The notes under the pieces were generated by a model. It was not told the DNA's origin and did not search any database. It saw only the letters and a list, made by a program, of their open reading frames with translations. Shown here in pieces: positions 10,990 through 28,178 of a stretch of 64,000 nt of DNA. The position numbers and the translations under genes were made by a program. Source of the stretch: Micromonospora sp. WMMD1155 (GTDB lineage: Bacteria; Actinomycetota; Actinomycetes; Mycobacteriales; Micromonosporaceae); the NCBI RefSeq assembly GCF_029581275.1, contig NZ_CP120742.1:780501-844500 (forward strand), in the 5' to 3' direction. Each line of letters begins with the position of its first letter. Position 1 is the stretch's first letter.

Positions 10990-11760
10990 ATGACGCCAGC
11001 TCAGGAGACAGCCCTGAACAGTCCGGTAACCCCGGCATGGGTCCGCCGACCGACAAACCTCGCCCGGGCGGTCACCGCCGAACTCGTGCAACGCATCGTC
11101 CGTGGCGTACACCCGTCGGGGACGTCCCTGCCTCCCGAGCCGGTCCTCTGCGAGACCTTCTCGGTGAGCCGGACGGTCGTCCGGGAAGCCGTCAAGATCC
11201 TTCAGGAGAAAGGGCTGGTGCAGGTCCGCCAGGGTGCCGGCACCATGGTCACCCCGCCGTCACAGTGGGACATGCTCGATGAGCTCGTCCTCGCGGCCAC
11301 CATCGCCGAGGACGACAGCCTCGCGATCCTGGACGATCTCGTCGTCACCCGACGCGTGCTCGAGTCCGACATGGCGAACGTCGCCGCCCGGCTCGCCGAC
11401 GCGGAGACCATCGACCGCCTTCGCGAGATGGTGGACGGGATGGACGAGCTGGTCGACGACCACGTGACGTACCACGAGCACGACCGGGCCTTCCACGACA
11501 CGATCATGCAGGCGTCCGGCAACCGCATCGCCCGCGGTGTCGTACGCGCGCTGGAGAGCCAGGTCATCAACACCGCCAGCTACATGGGCCGCACCGAGCG
11601 CTCCCTGTGCGTGGCGTCCAACAGGGGCCACCGGCGGATCTACGAGCGCATCGCCGCCCACGACTCCGAGGGCGCCGCCGAGGCGATGTTCACCCACATC
11701 ACCGAAGCCTGGTTGGTCCGCCGCAGCGGTTCGGGCAAGCCGGTTCGTCTGCAACGCTGA
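10990..11760 (+). CDS. GntR-family transcriptional regulator, FadR subfamily
   Basis: This 256-residue regulator has an N-terminal winged HTH (about 25-90, with FSVSRTVVREAVKILQEKGLVQVRQGAGTMV) and a C-terminal all-helical FCD ligand domain with HDRAFHDTIMQASGN, which contributes metal-binding residues in the family. An ATG preceded by GGAGGGG sets the start. It is divergent from the importer/catabolic operon and most likely represses it, with an acidic sugar or aldonate as inducer (inference). The inverted repeat at 10,917 is the likely operator. Confidence 0.92.
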   Translation: MTPAQETALNSPVTPAWVRRPTNLARAVTAELVQRIVRGVHPSGTSLPPEPVLCETFSVSRTVVREAVKILQEKGLVQVRQGAGTMVTPPSQWDMLDELVLAATIAEDDSLAILDDLVVTRRVLESDMANVAARLADAETIDRLREMVDGMDELVDDHVTYHEHDRAFHDTIMQASGNRIARGVVRALESQVINTASYMGRTERSLCVASNRGHRRIYERIAAHDSEGAAEAMFTHITEAWLVRRSGSGKPVRLQR

Positions 11761-11802
11761 GCGGCAGCGCCACACCCCCGGCACGGGAGCGGACGCTGCC
11801 GC
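11761..11802. terminator. Hairpin between convergent gntR and esterase genes
   Basis: GCGGCAGCG (11761-11769) pairs perfectly with CGCTGCCGC (11794-11802). It begins directly after the GntR stop and precedes the converging esterase stop at 11836. Confidence 0.55.
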
Positions 11803-11835
11803 CGACGTCAGCGCCGGACTCGCCGGCGACCGGGG

Positions 11836-13224
11836 TCAGGAGAACTGCGAGAAGAACCTCCAGATCTCACCCTTGGTCCAGGTCGTGATCCCACTCTCGG
11901 CGTAGGTGCCGTCCACCGGGCCGGGCATGTGGCCGTTGTCGTACGCGGCCCACTGCACCGGGTACCCGGAGCGGCAGCCCGAGTAGGCGGTGGTGATGTG
12001 AGTGCGGCTGCCCGCCCCCGGCTCGGGCGGGTTCTGGGCGGTGCACCCGTTGTTGCGCACGAACGTGTCGCGCAGCGCCCTGCCCTGGGAGATGCTCAGG
12101 ACGTTGTCCGAGATGCCGTGCAGGCCGAAGTACGCGATGGGCTGCGTCCCGCCACTGCACCCGCTGATCTGCCCGCCGGAGATGACCGCGACGGCCCGGA
12201 AGACGGTGGCCCGGGCACAGGCGATGGCGTAGCTCATGCCCCCACCCCAGCTGAAGCCGAGCGCGAACCGCTGCCGCGGGTTGACACAGAGGCTGCTCTC
12301 GATCCGGCTGATCATGTCGTCGACGAAGACGATGTCCTCACCGCCGGAGTTGGCCCAGCCGTTGCCCAAGCCCTGGGGCGCGACCAGGATCGCGCTGTTG
12401 TTCGACTGCTCCTGCTGCCCGTAGTAGGACCACGGCGTTCCACTGGTGCCGCCGGAGGAGACGTCCTGCATGGTGCCGCCCCGCCAGTGGAACGCGAAGA
12501 TCAGCCGGTAGGGGTTGCTGTTGTCGTAGTTGGCCGGCACCCGCAGGGTGAACGTCCGACTCTTGCCGTTGCTCTGGATCGTGTGCGTACCACTGGACAG
12601 GGTCGGCGCCTTGCCGCAGCCGCTGCCACCGGTCGGTGGCGGGGTGGTGCCGCCGTCGGTGCGGACGAGCTGCCACTGCTGGTTGGCACCGCCGTGGTCG
12701 GCGTACTGCACGATGTTGCCGCCGTCGGCCGTGGAGGCACCCTGCACCTCCACCGCCTTGCTGCTGTGCCGGCTGATCAGTCGCACATGGCCGCCGTCCG
12801 AGTCGGCCAGCCGGAACTGCTGGTTGGTCCCGTTGAGGTCGGACCACTGCACGATCGCACCGCCGTCGGCGGTCGAGAAACCACTGACGTCGAGGACCTT
12901 GCCGGAGTGCCGGGACTTCACCCGGTAGAAGCCGCCTCCCGAGTCGACGAACTGCCACTGCTGGTTGGCACCGTTGTTGCGGGTCCACTGGCTGATCCGC
13001 GCGCCGTCGTTGGTGGCCGAGGCGTACAGGTCGAGCGCCTTGCCGCTGTTGCGGTTGACCAGGACGTACCAGGCGTTGGTGTCCACGGTGGCCGCCGCCG
13101 CGGGGGCCTGGTTGACCGCGACCAGCGCGCCGGCCGCCATGACCGCGGCCGCCGCGGTGGCCAACCCTGACCGCCAGCGATGCCGTGCTGGGGAGGCGGG
13201 ACGAGCCTCACCGATGACCTTCAT
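11836..13224 (-). CDS. Secreted CBM13 + CE1-type esterase (feruloyl/acetyl-xylan esterase-like)
   Basis: The 462-residue protein has a signal peptide (about 1-46), a CBM13 trefoil (47-190) with three QQW/QQF repeats, a Pro/Thr/Gly linker, then an alpha/beta hydrolase resembling the CE1/PHB-depolymerase-like esterases. Ser325 in GFSWGG is the nucleophile; Asp in HGISDN and His in DNGHMPG complete the triad. Start ATG 13224 has GAAGGAG upstream; the open frame to 13,476 runs through the promoter. It should remove ferulate or acetate from xylan side chains alongside the adjacent GH10 xylanase. Its CBM13 is nearly the same as that of the xylanase. Confidence 0.88.
   Translation of the reverse strand: MKVIGEARPASPARHRWRSGLATAAAAVMAAGALVAVNQAPAAAATVDTNAWYVLVNRNSGKALDLYASATNDGARISQWTRNNGANQQWQFVDSGGGFYRVKSRHSGKVLDVSGFSTADGGAIVQWSDLNGTNQQFRLADSDGGHVRLISRHSSKAVEVQGASTADGGNIVQYADHGGANQQWQLVRTDGGTTPPPTGGSGCGKAPTLSSGTHTIQSNGKSRTFTLRVPANYDNSNPYRLIFAFHWRGGTMQDVSSGGTSGTPWSYYGQQEQSNNSAILVAPQGLGNGWANSGGEDIVFVDDMISRIESSLCVNPRQRFALGFSWGGGMSYAIACARATVFRAVAVISGGQISGCSGGTQPIAYFGLHGISDNVLSISQGRALRDTFVRNNGCTAQNPPEPGAGSRTHITTAYSGCRSGYPVQWAAYDNGHMPGPVDGTYAESGITTWTKGEIWRFFSQFS
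12657..13086 (-). repeat. CBM13-coding segment duplicated in the xylanase gene (copy 1)
   Basis: This segment encodes the N-terminal CBM13 of the esterase. It aligns over its whole length with the C-terminal CBM13 of the xylanase (13718-14149), with long identical runs such as [21 protein letters not shown] and [13 protein letters not shown]. Confidence 0.75.
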
Positions 13225-13447
13225 GGTCCACTCCTTCGATCGGGGCCGCCCACGAGCAGAACGCATGGGAGTGCCCTGGGGTGCGTGCCGGCGACTGGTG
13301 GTGGCGTCAGCACGTCTGAGGGGTATGCGGACGAGACGCGGCCGCCGCCGAGCGGCCGTGGCCCAGGCCACGGACCGAATGTGGAGCAGGCCCGCGCCGG
13401 GTGCGCGGCACCCTCCGGCTCCGGGCTGCCAGGTGGTCCGCGGGTGA

Positions 13448-13476
13448 AAATTAGCGTTAACGACGTCATACGTCAA
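13448..13476 (-). promoter_or_regulatory. Promoter of the CBM13-esterase gene with GntR-type operator
   Basis: On the minus strand, TTGACG (13476-13471), a 17-base spacer and TAATTT (13453-13448) form a promoter. The inverted repeat GACGT-CAT-ACGTCAA (13462-13476) overlaps the -35 in exactly the register seen at the fucose-type operon (10917-10932), which suggests control by the same GntR protein. Confidence 0.65.
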
Positions 13477-13582
13477 ACGATTGGCATCGATTTCGCGAGG
13501 TTCTCCACGGCCGGCAGCATGGGCGCTGGTAGCAGCTCTGCGAGCTTCGCGCCGCGACGGAGCAGTGACTTGACGTAGCTCT

Positions 13583-13597
13583 TGTTATCGCTCACAG
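13583..13597. promoter_or_regulatory. LacI/cre-like operator copy 1 (TGTTATCGCTCACAG)
   Basis: It matches the LacI-family consensus TGWNANCGNTNWCA. TTGACG lies seven bases before it (13570-13575), the same spacing as at the xylanase promoter. The region 13225-13714 holds no gene: it contains the esterase promoter, this operator and the xylanase terminator. Confidence 0.55.
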
Positions 13598-13657
13598 TCG
13601 ATGGACGGTGGGGCGACGCCGATCGGGCGAGCGGCACCTCCCCAGCGGGCACAAAGA

Positions 13658-13686
13658 GCGGCCCGCCCCGGGTGGGGGCGGGCCGC
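13658..13686 (-). terminator. Terminator of the GH10 xylanase gene
   Basis: A perfect 12-base stem (GCGGCCCGCCCC with its complement) encloses a five-base loop. In the direction of xylanase transcription it is followed by TCTTTGT. It lies 29 bases beyond the stop codon. Confidence 0.8.
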
Positions 13687-13714
13687 CGTCCTTGTCACCT
13701 GACTCGTCCGATCG

Positions 13715-15439
<1,725 letters not shown>

Positions 15440-18354: not shown

Positions 18355-19938
18355 TCAACGGTAACCGGCGCCCACCACGTTGGCCTGCACCGCGTTCTCG
18401 GTCGCGTCGGACGGATAACCGGCGACCATCGCGCCCTCGTAGAAGGTGCCGGCGCTCAGGTTCGCGCCGCCGTCGGGCTTGCAGCAGTCACCACCACTGC
18501 CCAGGATGATCGCGCCCTGCTTCTTCATCGGGCTGTACCCGGCCGGGAGCGAGCCGTCGTACAGCGTGTAGAGGCTGCCGGACTGCGCGTCGCTGCCCTT
18601 GATGGCGAAGCGGGTGGTGCCGTTGTTCTTCAGCGTCGCGGTGACGAACTTGCTGGTGAACGCGCGCTGATTCGGGTTCCAGGTCTGGCTGCCACCCGGG
18701 AAGAGGCCCCACTCCAGGTCCGCCTGCACCCATGGGCCGCTGCCGGAGCAGCCGCCGAACCAGCACTGCTTGCTGAAGTTGATGGCGTCCATCGCCCCGG
18801 CGGCGTCGGCTTTGCGCGTCGTCTCGCTGTTGCCGTAGTCGAAGCAGCACCCGCTGTTGACGTGGGTGCCGCTGGTGACCATGTACATGCCCTCGGGAGC
18901 GGCGCCGGTCGGCACTCCGGTGAGGTGCCCGTCGCGCCAGTAACTGTTGCCCGGGTTGATGTAGAGCGAGTACGCCTTGGCCCCGCCCACCGTCAGCGAC
19001 TCCGACGTGGCGATCGCCGGCTTGCTCTGCGGTGAGCCCGGCACCACGCTGGATCCCTGGTACCAGAGGTCGTTCCCGCGACCGGACTGGTCGAAGACGA
19101 CGGTGATCACGCAGGTGGTACCGGCGCAGAAGGAGTCCTGCGTGGCCGCGACGGCGGTGCCGCCCGCGGCGGACACCGCGATGTTGCGGGTCGTGTTGTC
19201 CGACGAGCGCCGCACCTGGTAGAGGTTCCCGGAGTACGCCGCGAAGAGGGCCCGCGTCGTGCTGTGCGCCGCGATGCACGGGGTGCCGCCGGAGGCGTAG
19301 ATGTCGCACGGGCGCGCGCCGCTCGGCGGTGGGGTGGTCGGCGGTGGCGTCGTCGGCGGGGTGCTCGGCGAGCTCCACTGCTGGTTCGCGCCGCCGTTGC
19401 AGGCCCAGAGGATGATCTTGGTGCCGTTCGCGGTGGCGGCGGCGTTGGCGTCGAGGCAGAGCCCGGACTGCACGCCGGTGATGGTGCCGTTGCTGTTGAC
19501 GTTCCACTGCTGGTTGTTCTGACCGTTGCAGTCCCAGATGATCACCTGCGTGCCGTTGGTGGTGCCCCGGCCGTTGGCATCCAGGCACTTGTTGCCGTAC
19601 ACCGTGAGCTGCCTGCTCGACGTCCAGGTCCAGGTCTGTCCGGCGCTGCCGTTGCAGTCCCACAGCTGGGTCTGGGTGCCGTTGGTGGTGCTGGAGTTCG
19701 GCACCTCCAGGCAGCGACCGGACTGCGTACCGACGATGGTGCTGCTCTGCCCCGGCTCGATCGCCGCGGCCACGGCCGCGGCGGCCTCAGTGGTGAAGGG
19801 TGCGGTGGCGGGCATGCTGCCGTAGCTGACGAGGACGCCGACCAGGGCAGCGGCCAGAAAGGTCAGACGTCGGACGCGGCGGCGTCTCGGGACGGGATCG
19901 GGGCCCGTTGCGGGCCCATCGGGGGACGGGGTTCGCAC
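18355..19938 (-). CDS. Secreted GH54 alpha-L-arabinofuranosidase with N-terminal CBM13
   Basis: The 527-residue protein has a positively charged N-region, a membrane-spanning signal (about 25-55), a CBM13 (about 63-192) with repeated LWDCNG/QQW motifs, a Thr/Pro linker and a GH54 catalytic domain (about 205-527), recognised by PCDIYASGGTPCIAAHSTTR, the paired Cys of SGCCFDYGN and the C-terminal GGDCCKPDGG. Fungal and bacterial AbfB enzymes of this family usually carry CBM42; the ricin-type module in front is a different design. The start is GTG 19938 with GAGGAG six bases upstream. The promoter bears the GCGAATCGATTCGC operator. Confidence 0.88.
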   Translation of the reverse strand: MRTPSPDGPATGPDPVPRRRRVRRLTFLAAALVGVLVSYGSMPATAPFTTEAAAAVAAAIEPGQSSTIVGTQSGRCLEVPNSSTTNGTQTQLWDCNGSAGQTWTWTSSRQLTVYGNKCLDANGRGTTNGTQVIIWDCNGQNNQQWNVNSNGTITGVQSGLCLDANAAATANGTKIILWACNGGANQQWSSPSTPPTTPPPTTPPPSGARPCDIYASGGTPCIAAHSTTRALFAAYSGNLYQVRRSSDNTTRNIAVSAAGGTAVAATQDSFCAGTTCVITVVFDQSGRGNDLWYQGSSVVPGSPQSKPAIATSESLTVGGAKAYSLYINPGNSYWRDGHLTGVPTGAAPEGMYMVTSGTHVNSGCCFDYGNSETTRKADAAGAMDAINFSKQCWFGGCSGSGPWVQADLEWGLFPGGSQTWNPNQRAFTSKFVTATLKNNGTTRFAIKGSDAQSGSLYTLYDGSLPAGYSPMKKQGAIILGSGGDCCKPDGGANLSAGTFYEGAMVAGYPSDATENAVQANVVGAGYR

Positions 19939-20001: not shown

Positions 20002-20050
20002 GCGAATCGATTCGCAAGAAATCGTAGGATCTTTATTTCATTCATGTCAA
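20002..20050 (-). promoter_or_regulatory. GH54 promoter with LacI-type operator GCGAATCGATTCGC
   Basis: On the minus strand TTGACA (20050-20045), an 18-base spacer and TACGAT (20026-20021) are followed five bases later by the perfect 14-base palindrome (20015-20002), placing it over the start site. Layout and many bases match the promoter at 22,005-22,052. Confidence 0.8.
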
Positions 20051-20119
20051 TGAATGCTGTTGGCGGGAGATGCGCCGGCCGCCCGACGAGCGGCCGACGC
20101 ATCACCTCCCCCGAGGCAT

Positions 20120-21955
20120 CTACCGCCCCAGCAGCCGCCACGTCTGGTTCAACGGGCTGCCCTGGTTGACCGCTCGGCAGGGCCACTGGTGGACCAGCGC
20201 GCCGGCCGCCGTGGAGACCGCGTTGACATCGACGCACTTGCCACTGTGTCGGGCGACGAGTTGGTAGTCGTGCGAGTCGTTGCCCGAGTACGTCACCTTG
20301 CGCAGCGTGAACTGCTGGTTGGAGCTGTTCAGGCAGGTCCACTGGTGCACGGCCGCGCCGTCGGCGGTGGACACGCCGCTGACGTCGAGGCACTTGCCGC
20401 TCTGCTGGTTGACCACGGTGTACGTGTTGGCCACTCCGGCGACCGGCCGGAAGTTCCAGAGCTGCTGGTCACCGCCGTCGCAGATGTTCTGCTGCTGGAC
20501 GTTGCCGTCGGCCGCGCTCAGACCGGGGTTGTTCAGGCACTGCTGGGAGTGCTGCGCCACGGCCACCGACTGGAAGCCACCCTCAGAGGGTGGCAGCAGT
20601 GTGAGCGTGTAGGTGTCGGTCTGGTTGGAGTACGGCAGGGTGACGGTGGCGTTGTTGTTGGACACGTTCACCACGCTGCTGGAGACCGTGACCGGCCCCT
20701 GGACGGCACCGCCGTTGTTGTGCGGAATGCGCTGGGTGAGCACCCGGACCTGGTTGTTCTGCACGATGCCGCTGGTCGTGTCCAGGCGTTGCAGGTTGAC
20801 GGTCAGGTTCCCGGTGGTACGACCACCACCGACCAGGACCTTCGCCGAGCCGGTCGTCTTCGTGGCGTACGCGTCGAACGACTGACTCGGGGTCACACCG
20901 ACGATCTGCCCGGTCTGCGAGGCGTAGAAGCGGTAGTTCCACCACTCGCCCTTGGGCTGGTGCTGTCCGGCCGAATTACGGATCAACAGGTTGCCGAGGT
21001 CGTTGTGCAGGCTGCCCCCGCTGGCCCAGTTCGCTCGCAGGCCGTCCGCCCGGGCCCGCTCCAGGCGCGCGATGTACCACGCGCCGTCGGCCGGGTTCTG
21101 CTCGTCGGGGGCGCCGTACTCGTTGATCTGGTACGGACGCGGGTGGGCGATGCCGCGCGGGTCGAGGGTGGCGTTGGCCGCGGCGACGTTCGCGACCGGG
21201 TCGCCCGGCAGCGAGTGCCAGCTGATGATGTCCGGCACCGTGTTGGTCGAGCGAACGAAGTCCAGGTACTGGTTCCAGAAGGTGTGCGTGGTCGACGGCA
21301 CGCAGGCGCAGCTCGGTCCGACGATGAGCTGGCTGGGGAACTCCGCCCGGATGCGCTGGTAGGTCCGGCGCCACAGTTCGAGGTACTGCGAGATCGGGCG
21401 GTTCCAGAAGATGGTGATGTTGGGTTCGTTCCAGATGTCCCACTGCACCGACAGCCCGGACGCCCGGACGTCGCCGATCAGGCGGGTCAGGAAGTTGTCG
21501 TAGTCGGTCCAGTTGCCGTTGTCGCCGGGGAAGCGGGAGATCCCCGCGCCGTCGGCACCCCACAGGTCGTGCGGCAGGATGATGAACTGCCCGCCGAGGG
21601 CGTTGGTCCGACGCGCCTGGGCGAGGGTGGAGTTCCAGCGGCGGTCGTAGGTCCCGCCGACCCAGCCGCTGCCCGGGAGCTGTGCGCCGCCGGCACGCAT
21701 GTACTGGAACTCGACGTCCCGGTAGAAGTGGTCGGCCGGACCGCCGGCGTTCTCGGTCATGCCGTAGATCCAGCCGGAGGCGCGGTAGGTCGGCGCACCG
21801 CTGGTCGAGGAGAAGTTGACGCTGATCGACTCGTCGGCGGCCTGGGCGGGGGACGGGGCGACGGCGACGGCGGTCGTGGCGGCGAGCAGACCGACCACGA
21901 GTCGGGCGACGATCGCACCGGCTCGTCCTGACCTGCCGCGGGACGGGGTTTTCAC
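20120..21955 (-). CDS. Secreted clan GH-A glycosidase (GH39-like) with C-terminal CBM13
   Basis: The 611-residue protein has a signal peptide (to about residue 39), a TIM-barrel glycosidase (about 45-340), a beta-sandwich (about 345-450) and a CBM13 (about 465-611). Clan GH-A catalytic glutamates are Glu177 in WDIWNEPN (acid/base) and Glu279 in YQINEYG (nucleophile). The family is most like GH39, which includes beta-xylosidases and arabinose-releasing enzymes; GH79 or GH5 cannot be excluded by eye. Start GTG 21955 follows AAGGAG. It shares its operator with the GH54 and ABC genes, which suggests arabinose-bearing substrates. Confidence 0.8.
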   Translation of the reverse strand: MKTPSRGRSGRAGAIVARLVVGLLAATTAVAVAPSPAQAADESISVNFSSTSGAPTYRASGWIYGMTENAGGPADHFYRDVEFQYMRAGGAQLPGSGWVGGTYDRRWNSTLAQARRTNALGGQFIILPHDLWGADGAGISRFPGDNGNWTDYDNFLTRLIGDVRASGLSVQWDIWNEPNITIFWNRPISQYLELWRRTYQRIRAEFPSQLIVGPSCACVPSTTHTFWNQYLDFVRSTNTVPDIISWHSLPGDPVANVAAANATLDPRGIAHPRPYQINEYGAPDEQNPADGAWYIARLERARADGLRANWASGGSLHNDLGNLLIRNSAGQHQPKGEWWNYRFYASQTGQIVGVTPSQSFDAYATKTTGSAKVLVGGGRTTGNLTVNLQRLDTTSGIVQNNQVRVLTQRIPHNNGGAVQGPVTVSSSVVNVSNNNATVTLPYSNQTDTYTLTLLPPSEGGFQSVAVAQHSQQCLNNPGLSAADGNVQQQNICDGGDQQLWNFRPVAGVANTYTVVNQQSGKCLDVSGVSTADGAAVHQWTCLNSSNQQFTLRKVTYSGNDSHDYQLVARHSGKCVDVNAVSTAAGALVHQWPCRAVNQGSPLNQTWRLLGR

Positions 21956-22004
21956 GGGCGGCTCCTTGGTGGGGCGTGGGGGACGCTCTCCGGAGGCAGC
22001 ACTT

Positions 22005-22052
22005 GCGAATCGATTCGCAGGGATCGTAGGACCGGGCACTGAACCGTGTCAA
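22005..22052 (-). promoter_or_regulatory. GH39-like gene promoter with LacI-type operator
   Basis: On the minus strand TTGACA (22052-22047), an 18-base spacer and TACGAT (22028-22023) are followed four bases later by GCGAATCGATTCGC (22018-22005); the symmetry extends to 16 bases (22004-22019). Confidence 0.8.
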
Positions 22053-22103
22053 TGAATTGACAACCGGATGACGGCTGTGTTTCCGCGTCCACCCGCATAG
22101 CTC

Positions 22104-22163
22104 TTGACCACTGGTTGCGGACCGCCTTATCTTCGTGCGAACCGATTCGTCGAATCGATTCGC
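22104..22163 (+). promoter_or_regulatory. ABC-operon promoter with two tandem LacI-type operators
   Basis: TTGACC (22104-22109), a 17-base spacer and TTATCT (22127-22132) form a strong promoter. Two operator copies overlap by one base just downstream: GCGAACCGATTCGT (22137-22150, two mismatches) and TCGAATCGATTCGC (22150-22163, one mismatch). Confidence 0.82.
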
Positions 22164-22241: not shown

Positions 22242-23480
22242 ATGACCGGACTCAGTCGTCGGCGGCGCCTGGCCGCCGTCGCCGTGATAGCCCTCGCCGC
22301 AGCGACCGGCAGCGCCTGCTCGTCATCCTCGGATCAGCCCGCCGACGGCGGGGCCTACCTCGTCTGGGACCCGTACCCCCAGTTCGCCGACGACTCCGAG
22401 TGGGTCGCGCTGCTCAAGAAGTGCGGCACCTCGGCCGGTGTGACGGTCGAGCGGACCGGCTACGACACCACCGACCTGACCAACAAGGCGCTGCTCGCCG
22501 CCCAGCAGGGAAACTCGCCGGACGTGCTGATCGTCGACAACCCGGTCATCTCGACACTGGCCGAGGCCGGCGCGCTCACCACCACCGACGACAACAAGCT
22601 CGACGTGTCGTCGATGGAGAAGAACCTGCTCGGCGCGGGCCAGAGCGAGGGCAAGACGTACGGGGTGCCGATCGGCGCGAACACCCTCGCCCTCTACTAC
22701 AACAAGGACGTCCTCACCGCCGCCGGTGTCGACCCCGCCGCCGTCACGGACTGGGCCTCGCTGAACGAGGCGCTGGGCAAGGTCAAGGCCAAGGGGAAGA
22801 AGGGCATCACCTTCTCCGCGATCGGCACCGAGGAGGGCAGCTTCCAGTTCCTGCCCTGGTTCTGGGGATCCGGCGCCCAACTGACCAGTCTGGACTCACC
22901 GCAGGCGGTGGCCGCGCTGACCCTCTGGACGGACTGGCTCAAGCAGGGCCACGCACCGAACTCGGTCATCAACAACACCCAGACCACGAGTTGGCAGGAG
23001 TTCGCCACCGGCGACTACGCCTTCGCCGAGAACGGCACCTGGCAGCTGGCCAACGCGGAGAAGCTCGGCTTCGCGTACGGCACGATCGCGATCCCGGCCA
23101 GCACGGGCGGGCCCGCCCCGGCACCCACCGGCGGTGAGTTCGTCTCCATCCCGGTGCAGGAGAACACCGGACGGTACGACACCTCGCAGAAGCTCGTCGC
23201 CTGCCTGACCAGCGCCGACAACCTCCTCACCACCGATACCACCCTCTCCTACGTCGCACCCGTCGCCGCCGTCCAGGATCGGCAGGCGACGGCGGACCCC
23301 AAGCTCAAGGTCTGGGTCGAGGCGGTTCGGGCGGCCAAGGGCCGCACCGGCGACAACCTCGGCACGAAGTACCCGAAGATCTCCGAATCGCTGTGGACCG
23401 CCGTGCAGGCGGCCCTCAGCGGCGGGAAGTCACCGGGAGAGGCGCTGGCCGCCGCGCAGGCCGCAGCCACGAACAAGTAG
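22242..23480 (+). CDS. Sugar-binding lipoprotein of ABC importer
   Basis: The 412-residue solute-binding protein starts at ATG 22242 (GAAGTGAGG upstream); the open frame back to 22104 is the promoter and operators. The signal peptide ends in TGSAC, a slightly atypical lipobox, followed by a Ser-rich linker. NSPDVLIVDNPV and ALYYNKDVLTAAGVDP are typical of family-1 sugar-binding proteins. First gene of a four-gene operon with two permeases and a glycosidase; the imported sugar is presumably an arabinose-containing di- or oligosaccharide (inference from co-regulation with GH54). Confidence 0.9.
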   Translation: MTGLSRRRRLAAVAVIALAAATGSACSSSSDQPADGGAYLVWDPYPQFADDSEWVALLKKCGTSAGVTVERTGYDTTDLTNKALLAAQQGNSPDVLIVDNPVISTLAEAGALTTTDDNKLDVSSMEKNLLGAGQSEGKTYGVPIGANTLALYYNKDVLTAAGVDPAAVTDWASLNEALGKVKAKGKKGITFSAIGTEEGSFQFLPWFWGSGAQLTSLDSPQAVAALTLWTDWLKQGHAPNSVINNTQTTSWQEFATGDYAFAENGTWQLANAEKLGFAYGTIAIPASTGGPAPAPTGGEFVSIPVQENTGRYDTSQKLVACLTSADNLLTTDTTLSYVAPVAAVQDRQATADPKLKVWVEAVRAAKGRTGDNLGTKYPKISESLWTAVQAALSGGKSPGEALAAAQAAATNK

Positions 23481-23498: not shown

Positions 23499-24470
23499 AT
23501 GGCCCCCACGACAGAGACCCCCACCGCCGTACGAGGCCAGGGTGAGGCGGCGACCGCCGCCCCACCCGGGTCTCCCCCGTCCCGAGTCCGCCGGCGAAAC
23601 CGGTGGCCGGCATGGGGCTTCCTGGCACCCGTGACCGTCTACCTGGCGGCCTTCTACGCCTACCCGCTCTACCGCAATGTCGAGTTGAGTCTGCGGGAGT
23701 ACACCGTCCGCTCGTTCGTGCAGGGCGGCGCGCCCTTCGCCGGCCTGGACAACTACCGGACCGTGCTGACCGATCCGGCCTTCGTGCCGACGCTGACGCA
23801 CACAGTGGTCTTCACCGGCGCGTCACTCGCCTTCCAGTTCACCATCGGCATGGCCCTCGCGCTCTTCTTCCACCAGCACTTCCCGCTGTCGCGCACCCTG
23901 CGGGCGCTGTTCCTCGTACCGTGGCTGCTGCCGTTGATCGTGTCGGCGTCGACCTGGTCGTGGCTGCTCAACAGCGACTCGGGGTTGGTCAACTCCGCGC
24001 TCGGCGTGGTGGGCGTCGACCCGGTCAACTGGCTCACCTCGCCGGGTTGGTCGCTCACCTCGGTGATCATCGCGAACATCTGGATCGGCATCCCGTTCAA
24101 CCTGGTGGTGCTCTACAGCGGGCTGCAGGCGATCCCGGCCGAGGTGTACGAGGCATCCGCCCTCGACGGCGCGACCGGGTGGCAACGGTTCTGGGCGATC
24201 ACCTTTCCGTTGCTGCGCCCCGTCTCCGCGATCACGCTGCTGCTGGGGTTGATCTACACGCTGAAGGTCTTCGACATCATCTGGATCATGACCAAGGGTG
24301 GACCGACCGGCTCGTCCGCGACGCTCGCCACCTGGTCGTACCGGCTCGGCTTCGGCAACCTGCTGCCCGAGTTCGGACCGGGAGCGGCCGTCGGCAACCT
24401 GCTCATCGTGATGGCCCTGATCGCCGGGCTCGTCTACATCCGGATCGAGCGAAGGCAGCACCTGCGATGA
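23499..24470 (+). CDS. Carbohydrate ABC transporter permease, MalF type
   Basis: This 323-residue membrane protein has a Pro/Arg-rich cytoplasmic N-terminus of about 40 residues, six membrane segments and the EAA loop EVYEASALDGATGWQ..ITFPLL. It starts 18 bases after the lipoprotein stop and overlaps the next permease by four bases (ATGA). No ATPase gene accompanies it. Confidence 0.92.
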   Translation: MAPTTETPTAVRGQGEAATAAPPGSPPSRVRRRNRWPAWGFLAPVTVYLAAFYAYPLYRNVELSLREYTVRSFVQGGAPFAGLDNYRTVLTDPAFVPTLTHTVVFTGASLAFQFTIGMALALFFHQHFPLSRTLRALFLVPWLLPLIVSASTWSWLLNSDSGLVNSALGVVGVDPVNWLTSPGWSLTSVIIANIWIGIPFNLVVLYSGLQAIPAEVYEASALDGATGWQRFWAITFPLLRPVSAITLLLGLIYTLKVFDIIWIMTKGGPTGSSATLATWSYRLGFGNLLPEFGPGAAVGNLLIVMALIAGLVYIRIERRQHLR

Positions 24471-25291
24471 CCCAACCAACGCCACGGGCCTGGTGGAAGA
24501 CCGGCGTCGGCCTGGTCCTGACCGGGCTGATGCTCTTCCCCGTCTACTGGATGATCAACGTGTCGTTCACCAGGGACCAGGACATGCGGGCCACTCCCCC
24601 GCACCTGATCCCCACCAACGGCACCCTGGACGGCTACCGGGCGGTGCTCGACCAACAGTTGCCCTACCTCGGCACCAGCTTCCTGGTCGGCCTCGGCACC
24701 GTCGCGCTGACCCTGGCGCTGGCCGCCCCGGCCGGGTACGCGCTGGCGAAGCTCCGGCCTCCCGGCGGCCCGGCGTTGAGCTTCGTGCTGCTGATCGCCC
24801 AGATGATCCCGGGAATCATCATGGCGATGGGCTTCTACGCCATCTACCTCAGCCTCGGCGTCCTGAACACGCTGCCCGGCCTGATCCTGGCCGACACGAC
24901 ACTCGCGGTGCCGTTCGCTGTCCTGATCTTCACGGCCTTCATGTCCGGCATCCCCGACGAACTGCTCCAGGCCGCCGTGGTCGACGGCGCCGGCCGGCTA
25001 CGGACCTTCTGGTCCGTCGTACTGCCGGTCAGCCGCAACTCGATCGTCACGGTGTCACTGTTCGCGTTCCTGTGGTCCTGGTCGGACTTCATCTTCGCCT
25101 CGACCCTCACCGGTGGCGGCGACCACCAGCCGATCACCCTCGGCATCTACCACTACATCGGCAACAACAACCAGCAGTGGAACGCCATCATGGCGACCGC
25201 TGTCGTCGCCTCCATCCCCGCCGCCGCGCTGCTGGTCCTGGCCCAGCGCTACGTCTCGATGGGCGTGACCGCCGGCGCCGTCAAGGACTGA
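24467..25291 (+). CDS. Carbohydrate ABC transporter permease, MalG type
   Basis: The 274-residue membrane protein starts at ATG 24467, overlapping the upstream stop; the same frame is open from 23,603 but only as a shadow of the first permease. The EAA motif is ELLQAAVVDGAGRLRTFWSVVLPV. It forms the second half of the channel for the importer. Confidence 0.92.
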   Translation: MTQPTPRAWWKTGVGLVLTGLMLFPVYWMINVSFTRDQDMRATPPHLIPTNGTLDGYRAVLDQQLPYLGTSFLVGLGTVALTLALAAPAGYALAKLRPPGGPALSFVLLIAQMIPGIIMAMGFYAIYLSLGVLNTLPGLILADTTLAVPFAVLIFTAFMSGIPDELLQAAVVDGAGRLRTFWSVVLPVSRNSIVTVSLFAFLWSWSDFIFASTLTGGGDHQPITLGIYHYIGNNNQQWNAIMATAVVASIPAAALLVLAQRYVSMGVTAGAVKD

Positions 25292-25323: not shown

Positions 25324-27036
25324 ATGACCGTCGCCCCGTCCGGTCCGGAGTTCGGAATCCAGGACATCCCCTTCAGCTACCGAGGATCCTGGTTCAACCT
25401 CTCCCCGGTGGTAGCCGAGAAGACGTACGCCGACGATCTGCACCTGGTCTCCCACCAGACCGGTCTGCACCCCGTACTGCGCCTCGCCCCCACGGTCCCC
25501 GACACCACTGTCGTCGCCACCCCGGCGCTGCTGACCTGGCGCAGCGGCGGCGACCGGATCGAGGCCGTCTACGACGGGCCGGACACCCTGCGGATCCGGG
25601 GACGGCGGCTCGGTCTGCGGGTGGCCGCGGCGGCCGGCACCCTGACCCCGTTCAGCGGCACCTACCTGTATCTCGACCCGGTCGACGGGTCACACGTGTT
25701 CACCTCGTACGAGACCGGTCGCCGCTACCGGGTCACCGTGCTCTCCGGCACCCTCGCGCGGACCGACGGCGTGGAGGCGCTCGGCACCGCCGACCGGTCC
25801 CTGGACCTCCCCGCCGACCAGCCCTGGGAGATCGCGATCGAGGAGTACGCGACCGCCCGCCGCCGGTACGACGGGTCCGTCCCGTTCGAGCGGTTGTGCC
25901 GTGACCGGCTGACGGAGTTCACCACGTTCGTCGACGCGATCGCCCCGTGGCGGAGCCCGGACACACCGGCAGCGGAACTGGCCGCGTACGTCCTGTGGTC
26001 GGCGACCGTCGCCCCGGCGGGCTTCGTCGGCCGCCCGGCCGTCCTGATGTCCAAGCACTGGATGGACAAGGTGTGGAGCTGGGACCACTGCTTCAACGCC
26101 ATCGCCCTGGCCGCCGGAGAGCCCGAGCTGGCCTGGCACCAGTTCCACCTGCCCTTCGACCACCAGGACGAGGCCGGCGCCCTACCCGACTCGATCACCC
26201 ACTCCGAGGTCCTGCACAACTACGTCAAGCCCCCCATCCACGGCTGGGCGCTGCGCCACCTGCGTCGACTCCTCCCGCAGCAACCGGACCGGGCGGCGCT
26301 GGCCCAGACGTACGACCGGCTGGCCCGCTGGACCCGGTTCTGGCTCGACGCACGGCGGGCACCCGGTCAGGACCTACCCCACTACCAGCACGGCAACGAC
26401 AGCGGCTGGGACAACGCGACCACCTTCGACGACGGCCGGGTCCTCCAGACAGCCGACCTGGCCGCATTCCTGGTCGCGCAGCTCCGCTGCCTGGCCGACC
26501 TCGCCGGCGAGCTGGGTGAGCCCGCCGACGAGTGGTCCCGGGAGGCCGACCGGATCTGCGCGGCGATGCTGCACGACCTGTGGGACGGCGAACGGTTCCT
26601 GGCCCGCAGCCCGCACACCGGTCAGCGGCGGGCGAGCCGCAGCCTGCTCGACCTGATGCCCATCGCACTCGGCGCGGACCTGCCCGCGCCGGTCGCCGCG
26701 ACCCTGGCGCGCGGCGTCGAAGCGCACCTGACCACGCACGGGCCGGCCACCGAGCCGACCGACTCGGCCCACTACCTCGCCGACGGCTACTGGCGTGGCC
26801 CGATCTGGGCGCCCTCCACCGTCCTGGTCGAGGACGGTCTGCGGCGGGCCGGGCAGACCGGGATCGCCGACGAGATCAGTCGACGGTTCCTCGCGCTGTG
26901 CGAGAAGTCCGGTTTCGCGGAGAACTTCGACGCCGAGACCGGTGCCGGCCTCCGGGACCGCGCGTACACCTGGACGGCCAGCAGCTACCTCATCCTGGCG
27001 GCCGCCCAGGAACAACGGCGTGGCACCGGCGGGTAG
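25324..27036 (+). CDS. Cytoplasmic (alpha/alpha)6-barrel glycoside hydrolase (MGH1/GH63-like)
   Basis: The 570-residue protein has no signal peptide, so it acts inside the cell. An N-terminal beta-domain (about 1-190) precedes the (alpha/alpha)6 barrel (about 215-565) with KVWSWDHCFNAIALA, HGNDSGWDNAT and GYWRGPIWAPS, motifs shared by GH63 glucosidases, mannosylglycerate-hydrolase-like and glycogen-debranching relatives. It starts at ATG 25324, 32 bases after the permease stop, so it is the last gene of the importer operon and should cleave the imported oligosaccharide. The bond it cuts is not predictable from sequence by eye. Confidence 0.8.
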   Translation: MTVAPSGPEFGIQDIPFSYRGSWFNLSPVVAEKTYADDLHLVSHQTGLHPVLRLAPTVPDTTVVATPALLTWRSGGDRIEAVYDGPDTLRIRGRRLGLRVAAAAGTLTPFSGTYLYLDPVDGSHVFTSYETGRRYRVTVLSGTLARTDGVEALGTADRSLDLPADQPWEIAIEEYATARRRYDGSVPFERLCRDRLTEFTTFVDAIAPWRSPDTPAAELAAYVLWSATVAPAGFVGRPAVLMSKHWMDKVWSWDHCFNAIALAAGEPELAWHQFHLPFDHQDEAGALPDSITHSEVLHNYVKPPIHGWALRHLRRLLPQQPDRAALAQTYDRLARWTRFWLDARRAPGQDLPHYQHGNDSGWDNATTFDDGRVLQTADLAAFLVAQLRCLADLAGELGEPADEWSREADRICAAMLHDLWDGERFLARSPHTGQRRASRSLLDLMPIALGADLPAPVAATLARGVEAHLTTHGPATEPTDSAHYLADGYWRGPIWAPSTVLVEDGLRRAGQTGIADEISRRFLALCEKSGFAENFDAETGAGLRDRAYTWTASSYLILAAAQEQRRGTGG

Positions 27037-27043
27037 GCCGGAG

Positions 27044-28057
27044 TCAGCGCGTCGGCACCGGGCCGGTGCTGGACCGCAACGAGATGGGCGGCGTGTAGAG
27101 GCGGTGTCGTGGCACGGCGCCACGCTCGGCGATGGTCTCCAGCAGCAACGACACGGCCTCGGCACCCATCTCGACCATCGGCACGTCGGCCGCCGTCAAC
27201 GGGGGGCGGAAGTCCTCCGCCCAGTGCTGGGCGGCGACCCCGGTGACCGAGAAGTCGCCCGGCACGGCCATCCCGGCACCGGTCAACGCCCGCTGCATCC
27301 CGGGCAGGGCGGCCTCGTTGATCGTCGCCACCGCGGTGACGTCCGGGTGCGTTGCGAGCAACTGCTCCACACACGCCTCGCCGGAGGCGGTGTCGTCGCC
27401 GCAGCAGACCTCCACCCCGGTCAGGCCCCGCTCCGCCGCGGCCGCCCGGAAACCGGCCAGCGCCCGGTGGCTGGGGCCGTACCCCGCGGCCACCAACTCG
27501 GCCGAGCGGTTCACGAGCGCCACCTGCCGGTGACCCAGATCGGCCAGGTGGTGCACGCACCTGGCGATCAGGCCGGCGTAGTCGATGTCGATCCAGCTCA
27601 TGCCGTGCGGCTCCGCCGTCCGACCGATCGTGACGAAGGGCAGACCGGCCTTGGCCAACCGGGTCACCCGGTCGTCCTCCAGGCGGATCTCCATCAGGAT
27701 CACGCCGTCGACCCGACGCCCGGTGACGATCCGCTCGAACGACCGGTCGTGGTCACCGCCGGACGGGGACAGCAGCACATCAAGGTCGTGACGGGCGGCC
27801 GCCTCGACGACACTGGCGACGAAACCCAACTGCATGTCGGTCAGCCGCTGACTCGCCGGGGGGATCACCAGGCCGAGGGTGCGGGTCCGCCCCTCCTTCA
27901 ACGCTCGGGCGCTCGCGTTCGGCCGGTAGTCCAGCTCGTCGATGACGGCCTGGATCCGCTGCCGGGTCGCCTCCGACACCGCCCGTTTCCCGCTCAACAC
28001 GTACGACACGGTGCTGCGGGACACCCCCGCCCGGCGGGCGATCTCGCCGATGTTCAT
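27044..28057 (-). CDS. LacI-family transcriptional repressor
   Basis: The 337-residue regulator has the classical HTH and hinge (IGEIARRAGVSRSTVSYVLSGKRAVS, then YRPNASARALKEGRT) and a periplasmic-binding-protein-like ligand domain. Start ATG 28057 gives a textbook N-terminus (MNIGEIARRAGVS); the 14 codons upstream are discarded. It converges on the glycosidase gene with only seven bases between stops. It is the only LacI protein in the window and the best candidate to bind GCGAATCGATTCGC at 20,002, 22,005 and 22,137-22,163. Confidence 0.9.
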   Translation of the reverse strand: MNIGEIARRAGVSRSTVSYVLSGKRAVSEATRQRIQAVIDELDYRPNASARALKEGRTRTLGLVIPPASQRLTDMQLGFVASVVEAAARHDLDVLLSPSGGDHDRSFERIVTGRRVDGVILMEIRLEDDRVTRLAKAGLPFVTIGRTAEPHGMSWIDIDYAGLIARCVHHLADLGHRQVALVNRSAELVAAGYGPSHRALAGFRAAAAERGLTGVEVCCGDDTASGEACVEQLLATHPDVTAVATINEAALPGMQRALTGAGMAVPGDFSVTGVAAQHWAEDFRPPLTAADVPMVEMGAEAVSLLLETIAERGAVPRHRLYTPPISLRSSTGPVPTR

Positions 28058-28178
28058 GGACCGCCCTCGAATCACATCCTGCCCGGAACGGGGACGCACC
28101 AGGCTTCGCGGACGAGCATATCCACAGCCAGCTCACCGATCGTCGGCCCGGGCGGGCCGGGGTGAAGGTCGGCCGCCG

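Follow-up and report, generated by a model that had tools for sequence, protein, structure and literature searches.

Five promoters of Micromonospora sp. WMMD1155 carry the same palindromic operator a few bases downstream of a -10-like box, and the LacI-family protein encoded beside three of them is very probably the protein that binds it. Binder, targets and repression taken jointly form a prediction in which we place high confidence. An earlier, preliminary description of the window (the whole stretch of 64,000 nucleotides analysed here) had named a four-site regulon; this is an undercount, as three genomic places together contain no fewer than five promoters and six sites. The window features are as follows.

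18355-19938, minus strand: GH54 alpha-L-arabinofuranosidase with ricin-B lectin domain (PF09206, E 1.5e-136; PF14200; PF00652; signal-like N-terminus by eye)
20002-20015, no strand: operator GCGAATCGATTCGC of the GH54 gene (motif scan)
20016-20050, minus strand: GH54 gene promoter, TTGACA 20050-20045, 18-bp spacer, TACGAT 20026-20021, 5 bp to the operator (sequence)
20120-21955, minus strand: GH39-like enzyme with ricin-B lectin domain (structure relatives 8uwt and 5u22; signal-like N-terminus by eye)
22005-22018, no strand: operator GCGAATCGATTCGC of the GH39-like gene (motif scan)
22019-22052, minus strand: GH39-like gene promoter, TTGACA 22052-22047, 18-bp spacer, TACGAT 22028-22023, 4 bp to the operator (sequence)
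22104-22136, plus strand: importer operon promoter, TTGACC 22104-22109, 18-bp spacer, TATCTT 22128-22133, 3 bp to the operator pair (sequence)
22137-22163, no strand: overlapping operator pair CGAACCGATTCG-T-CGAATCGATTCG, 13 bp centre to centre (motif scan; conserved in relatives)
22242-23480, plus strand: solute-binding protein of the importer (profile search)
23499-24470, plus strand: ABC permease 1 (profile search)
24467-25291, plus strand: ABC permease 2 (profile search)
25324-27036, plus strand: predicted MGH1-like glycosidase with GH63-like fold (no signal-like N-terminus by eye)
27044-28057, minus strand: LacI-family regulator, the predicted binder, recognition-helix residues RS...Y (PF00356 and PF13377)
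28068-28073, no strand: half-site CGAATC, 11 bp before lacI (near-complete site there in several relatives)

A common operator at five promoters

The operator is an even palindrome with a central CG, located near a promoter. It had been described as perfect at 20002 and 22005, and both copies indeed have 0 mismatches; the imperfect tandem copies are likewise present, with 2 mismatches at 22137-22150 and 1 at 22150-22163. Scanning the window at up to 3 mismatches leaves three further matches to GCGAATCGATTCGC, with 3 mismatches each. At this tolerance the 7 matches compare with a shuffle mean of 4.19, and 11 of 100 shuffles reach 7. The 14-mer is thus not enriched in the window at this level, so that degenerate matches carry no weight by themselves. 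The improbable part is the exact copies of the motif, not the degenerate ones.

We therefore give the counts for the whole genome (7,344,427 bases, with expected counts taken from the window composition). The exact 14-mer occurs in 3 copies against 0.02-0.04 expected, and its exact 12-bp core CGAATCGATTCG in 5 copies against 0.15-0.35 expected, with none for the reversed control. Allowing one mismatch in the 12-mer yields 9 places (reversed control 1). On the basis of these counts and the control we rejected a chance origin of the exact sites. The scan also served as a check on whether the motif is common away from promoters: all five exact 12-mers precede an enzyme gene or the importer operon. 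Three lie in the cluster, one precedes a GH95 gene and one precedes two tandem feruloyl-esterase-type genes, the latter two promoters being located 4.4 and 4.6 Mb onward along the contig.

The layout TTGACA-18-TACGAT attributed to both minus-strand promoters can be read from the sequence in both. The operator had also been placed four or five bases after the -10, which is correct for the GH54 (5) and GH39-like (4) genes but not for the importer operon (3). Read from the sequence as well, and with the last distance given to the 14-mer position, the GH95 promoter has the form TTGACG-17-TACGAT-3-site and that of the esterase unit TTGACA-17-TAGCGT-4-site. The combined pattern TTGACN{17,20}TANNNTN{3,8}GAANCGNTTC has five matches in the genome, which are exactly the five regulon promoters, and the reversed control has none.

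Three one-mismatch matches in the genome (L012, L013 and L014) look unrelated. One precedes a gene with an fn3 domain, one is apparently intragenic and one falls where a decarboxylase reading frame begins. They were set aside, as the promoter layout is absent in all three and one seems, by eye, to fall in coding sequence. Two copies of CGAACCGGTTCG are also present in the genome; these we counted against the model.

Genes of the predicted regulon

The importer/glycosidase operon and the LacI gene at 27044-28057 are both borne out by domain assignments. For the secreted GH54 enzyme that had been claimed, the family is confirmed by the ArabFuran-catal domain (455.1 bits, cut-off 25). Secretion of this and the other regulon enzymes was judged by eye from signal-like N-termini only and is thus a prediction. 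The same holds for the claimed secreted GH-A enzyme, whose assignment can be refined to GH39-like: its nearest solved relatives are 8uwt (97.2 bits) and 5u22, the enzyme N2152 (87.5 bits), and both catalytic glutamates (NEP and NEY) align with those of N2152. The protein stays below the Pfam GH39 model (20.6 bits, cut-off 26), and a search for papers on 8UWT found none in the open literature. A disaccharide-releasing alpha-L-arabinofuranosidase is a candidate role for this protein.

A GH63-like (alpha/alpha)6 fold is seen in the structural model of the operon glycosidase, whose mean pLDDT is 78.9 and which falls below 50 in several stretches. Its best matches are YgjK and the T. thermophilus mannosylglycerate hydrolase, at 14-22% identity. 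It scores 56.3 bits against the curated glucosylglycerate hydrolase equivalog, below the cut-off of 550, and the names found in databases, for example amylo-alpha-1,6-glucosidase, are annotations rather than tests. Profile search found no GH36 or GH127 partner in the operon.

The third exact 14-mer, at C1:5199037 (L010:6038), precedes the gene of a GH95 protein (catalytic domain PF22124, E 3.6e-62) that carries a ricin-B lectin domain. Read by eye from the motif, Asp405 stands two residues before NxN, where Thr marks a galactosidase and His a fucosidase. The fifth 12-mer, at C1:5447299 (L011:6300), precedes two tandem genes whose products have ricin-B lectin domains. The first matches the solved feruloyl esterase 8jh8 (260.7 bits, residues 44-304) and shares 66% identity with the second. 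Two further esterase paralogues, at C1:2055824 and C1:792252 (window 11752-12642), have no exact 12-mer within 7 kb, so the operator does not mark esterase genes in general. The window region 11752-15424 encodes the latter paralogue, an esterase-like protein, and a GH10 xylanase, each with ricin-B lectin domains. It also holds a different LacI-like palindrome, TTAGCGTTAAC, at about 13451; GTTAGCGCTAAC occurs in L011.

The LacI protein as predicted binder

The regulator combines a LacI helix-turn-helix (PF00356) with a periplasmic-binding-protein-like core (PF13377), both above cut-off. Its proposed role as binder is supported by co-occurrence with the sites, by sites before lacI in relatives and by its recognition residues: RS...Y is found in none of the other LacI helices of the genome (24 helices). 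The recognition helix is TVSY and not TVSR, for which the code of Camas et al. was worked out according to the available part of that paper (PMC2978694).

Co-occurrence was assessed on loci found via orthologues of the operon glycosidase (best 80 of 424). A LacI orthologue of 55% identity or more is encoded at 66 loci, all of which have CGAAYCGRTTCG; the 14 others lack both, and the reversed control is absent from all 80. Eight of the 14 loci have full 10-kb flanks; six end at less than 10 kb on a side, so in some of them the contig end may have cut off lacI. The named loci with 84-91% identical glycosidases among these best 80 of 424 come mostly from Micromonospora, plus one each from Plantactinospora and Asanoa. 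Using a cut-off of at least 84% identity for 37 same-genus genomes (including the present one), the LacI orthologue is found in 14. The exact 12-mer occurs in 11 of these 14 and in 0 of the 23 others (Fisher 4e-7, uncorrected for kinship, related species being non-independent samples). Two genomes that have the orthologue and lack the exact 12-mer, G031 and G036, show C/T variants at the same promoters (L167, L168), and G006 has exact 12-mers at other loci and one-base variants in its own cluster. G001, G031 and G036 carry GAATCGATTC behind promoter-like sequence just before lacI; CGAAYCGRTTCG was not found in the 7.7-kb piece of G001 (L169), at which the contig ends.

Several Micromonosporaceae have a complete or nearly complete site before lacI. 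In the Streptomyces-type loci (LacI 61-68% identical) 1-4 exact CGAAYCGRTTCG copies, mostly CGAACCGGTTCG, precede lacI in 21 of the 21 listed. Palindromes before the binding-protein genes of these loci were considered and dropped: no motif is common to all, the site lying before lacI instead. Two observations we counted against the model, namely that the site of lacI itself is only a half-site in this genome and that, outside the genus, 6 of 24 genomes of the same order have the exact 12-mer too.

The combined promoter pattern matches all 14 orthologue genomes at 3-5 places each, some of which are promoters of a paralogue or others. It is also found in 4 of the 23 same-genus genomes without the orthologue and in 1 of the 24 same-order genomes, and the core in those five genomes differs (TGAACCGGTTC, CGAAACGTTTC or TGAAGCGTTTC). 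The reversed control gives one match each in G003 and G005. At five loci of relatives (L237, L241, L246, L248, L253) the pattern picked up the different site TGAACCGGTTC, which reads on as TGAACCGGTTCA in L246 and L248; such sites are perhaps another LacI regulon.

The targets are also conserved. Of 61 genomes, 11 have esterase orthologues of 84% identity or more; all 11 have the LacI orthologue, and in all 11 (10 relatives and the present genome) a site lies upstream, with CGAACCGATTCG, one base changed, replacing the exact core in G006 and G018. From among the matches listed we took 29 stretches in relatives, with most CGAACCGGTTCG places not included. In these stretches the site was further seen upstream of genes for a GH2-like protein (L142), a GH54 (L158) and one more esterase-like protein (L161); at the named locus L071 it precedes a GH43-containing protein. 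Eight of the 29 (L141, L146, L149, L152, L154, L157, L165, L166) gave no match to the regulon proteins, and the sites there are probably due to chance. Beside a LacI gene of 29-31% identity, four relatives (L142, L145, L160, L164) have two copies of the operator at a distance of 247-248 bp; in L142 the GH2-like gene, which encodes ricin-B domains, begins on the opposite side. At L028, L033, L035 and L048 the locus has no match to the importer binding protein and a GH63-like gene directly follows the operators.

It might be argued that another LacI-family protein binds some or all sites, for instance the 43% identical paralogue at C1:4890450-4891433 (G000, L171). Its gene has a promoter and, behind it, a 13-bp site pair of related motif, and its helix is also TVSY (VS...Y). 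A paralogue with a related motif in the same genome makes cross-binding possible. Nonetheless, its sites differ from the window motif at the bases flanking the central CG, and genomes such as G004, G007, G016 and G027, with 41-42% LacI matches and no adjacent orthologue, lack the exact 12-mer. The exact site moreover goes together with the adjacent LacI orthologue across genomes and loci, and we consider binding by another LacI-family protein very unlikely. Activation instead of repression is still harder to credit: nothing in these data supports it, and with the five sites 3-5 bp downstream of a -10-like box, over the probable start of transcription, a dimer bound there would obstruct the polymerase.

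Our preferred reading is thus that a dimer of the LacI protein at 27044-28057 would bind CGAAYCGRTTCG at the five promoters, cover the transcription start and keep RNA polymerase off. The five units would be the GH54 gene, the GH39-like gene, the importer with the GH63-like glycosidase, the GH95 gene and the two feruloyl-esterase-type genes. Their enzymes may strip feruloylated, arabinose-bearing side chains, with a small oligosaccharide being imported and then cut inside the cell. This oligosaccharide or its product would act as the inducer that relieves repression.

The overlapping operator pair

Spacing of neighbouring strict sites in the best 80 of 424 loci is nearly uniform: 27 pairs at 13 bp, one at 14 (L069) and none at other distances below 30. 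When the partner of a strict site may have up to 2 mismatches, and offsets of 12-14 are tried, the spacing is again 13 bp, at 6 loci. Counting partners 8 to 30 bp away in 291 distinct site contexts gives 88 at 13, 2 at 14, 1 at 27 and 4 at 30, with both pair members counted, opposite-strand duplicates kept and the loci being related. The 27 pairs represent only 8 distinct sequences. Both inner half-sites are of the T type in 21 of the 27; T and C types number 48 and 6 among the inner half-sites of all pairs, and 22 and 32 among the outer ones. In the present genome the pair is found only at the importer promoter, the other four regulon promoters being single-site.

The pair of the paralogue reads CGAACCGCTTAG-T-CGAAACGCTTCG, one of its sites having one mismatch in this genome. 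A 13-bp partner precedes the paralogue gene in 8 of 9 genomes looked at (its own and eight fetched by the combined pattern, hence a biased set). This count includes G006, with two partners of two mismatches each and a further degenerate partner; G001, where the LacI is 37% identical to that of the window, has a single site.

A 13-bp spacing of LacI-family sites has been reported and left unexplained (Ravcheev et al. 2014, PMC4052901). The overlapping sites of E. coli gntKU are likewise two sites about 13 bp apart and conserved (PMC4052901), whereas the regulon here has one pair promoter and four single-site promoters. The pair might accommodate two dimers, or one protein in two registers, on adjoining half-sites. 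That this LacI subfamily uses the pair as a binding mode of its own, giving tighter or sharper control of the importer than single-site promoters, is a tentative idea that we rather doubt; occupancy of this kind, if true, is not shown by current LacI-DNA structures. The system adds a well-conserved example of the 13-bp spacing and does not solve the question behind it. It does offer a clean test bed, with one predicted regulator for four single-site promoters and one pair promoter in the same cell, and with a paralogue of the same layout and different motif.

Substrate and relation to known systems

The closest comparison concerns the Bifidobacterium clusters with GH39 AAfase/GAfase (PMC10688797, available part). 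According to that part, the GH39 enzyme releases an arabinose-ended disaccharide from arabinogalactan protein or sugar-beet arabinan and adjoins a matching GH36 enzyme, and NF2152 is called an arabinofuranobiosidase. GH39, binding protein, permeases, LacI and a partner glycosidase are common to both systems. Differences are that the partner is GH63-like here and GH36 there, and that GH54, GH95 and feruloyl-esterase-type genes have a common operator here.

Feruloyl-esterase-type proteins, GH95, GH54 and the neighbouring GH10 xylanase make feruloylated xylan side chains the first guess. More generally, we would give feruloylated, arabinose-bearing side chains of a plant polysaccharide about an even chance of being the substrate. 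The imported sugar could, as a speculation drawn from the GH63-like fold and one reference title in the available part of PMC7176698, be an alpha-D-xylosyl-(1,3)-L-arabinose unit, the subject of that title. Arabinan or arabinogalactan-protein side chains, rather than grass arabinoxylan, are a less probable but substantial alternative. They are the substrates of the Bifidobacterium GH39 next to a LacI gene, binding protein and permeases, and arabinan is equally compatible with GH54 and GH39. On the other side, the two feruloyl-esterase-type proteins, GH95 and the GH10 xylanase suit feruloylated xylan, though not decisively; GH95 includes an alpha-L-galactosidase active on corn xylan (PMC4491172, available part), and the operon is without a GH36 or GH127 partner.

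The regulon is an ordinary LacI sugar regulon, a kind of system that is well known. As in the local LacI/GalR sugar regulons of PMC4052901 (available part), the operator is an even central-CG palindrome at the promoter, the regulator lies beside importer and glycosidase genes and autoregulation is indicated in relatives. The core is shorter, 12-14 bp against 16-22. The available part of that paper does not contain the motif or the regulon, nor its main text the string 'Micromonospor', and the open literature searched, outside which most subscription papers fall, yielded no description of either. For this genome the finding would mean that scattered enzyme genes are under common control. It predicts that enzymes acting on feruloylated side chains form an inducer-controlled set, and it draws attention to a GH63-like glycosidase that is uncharacterised.
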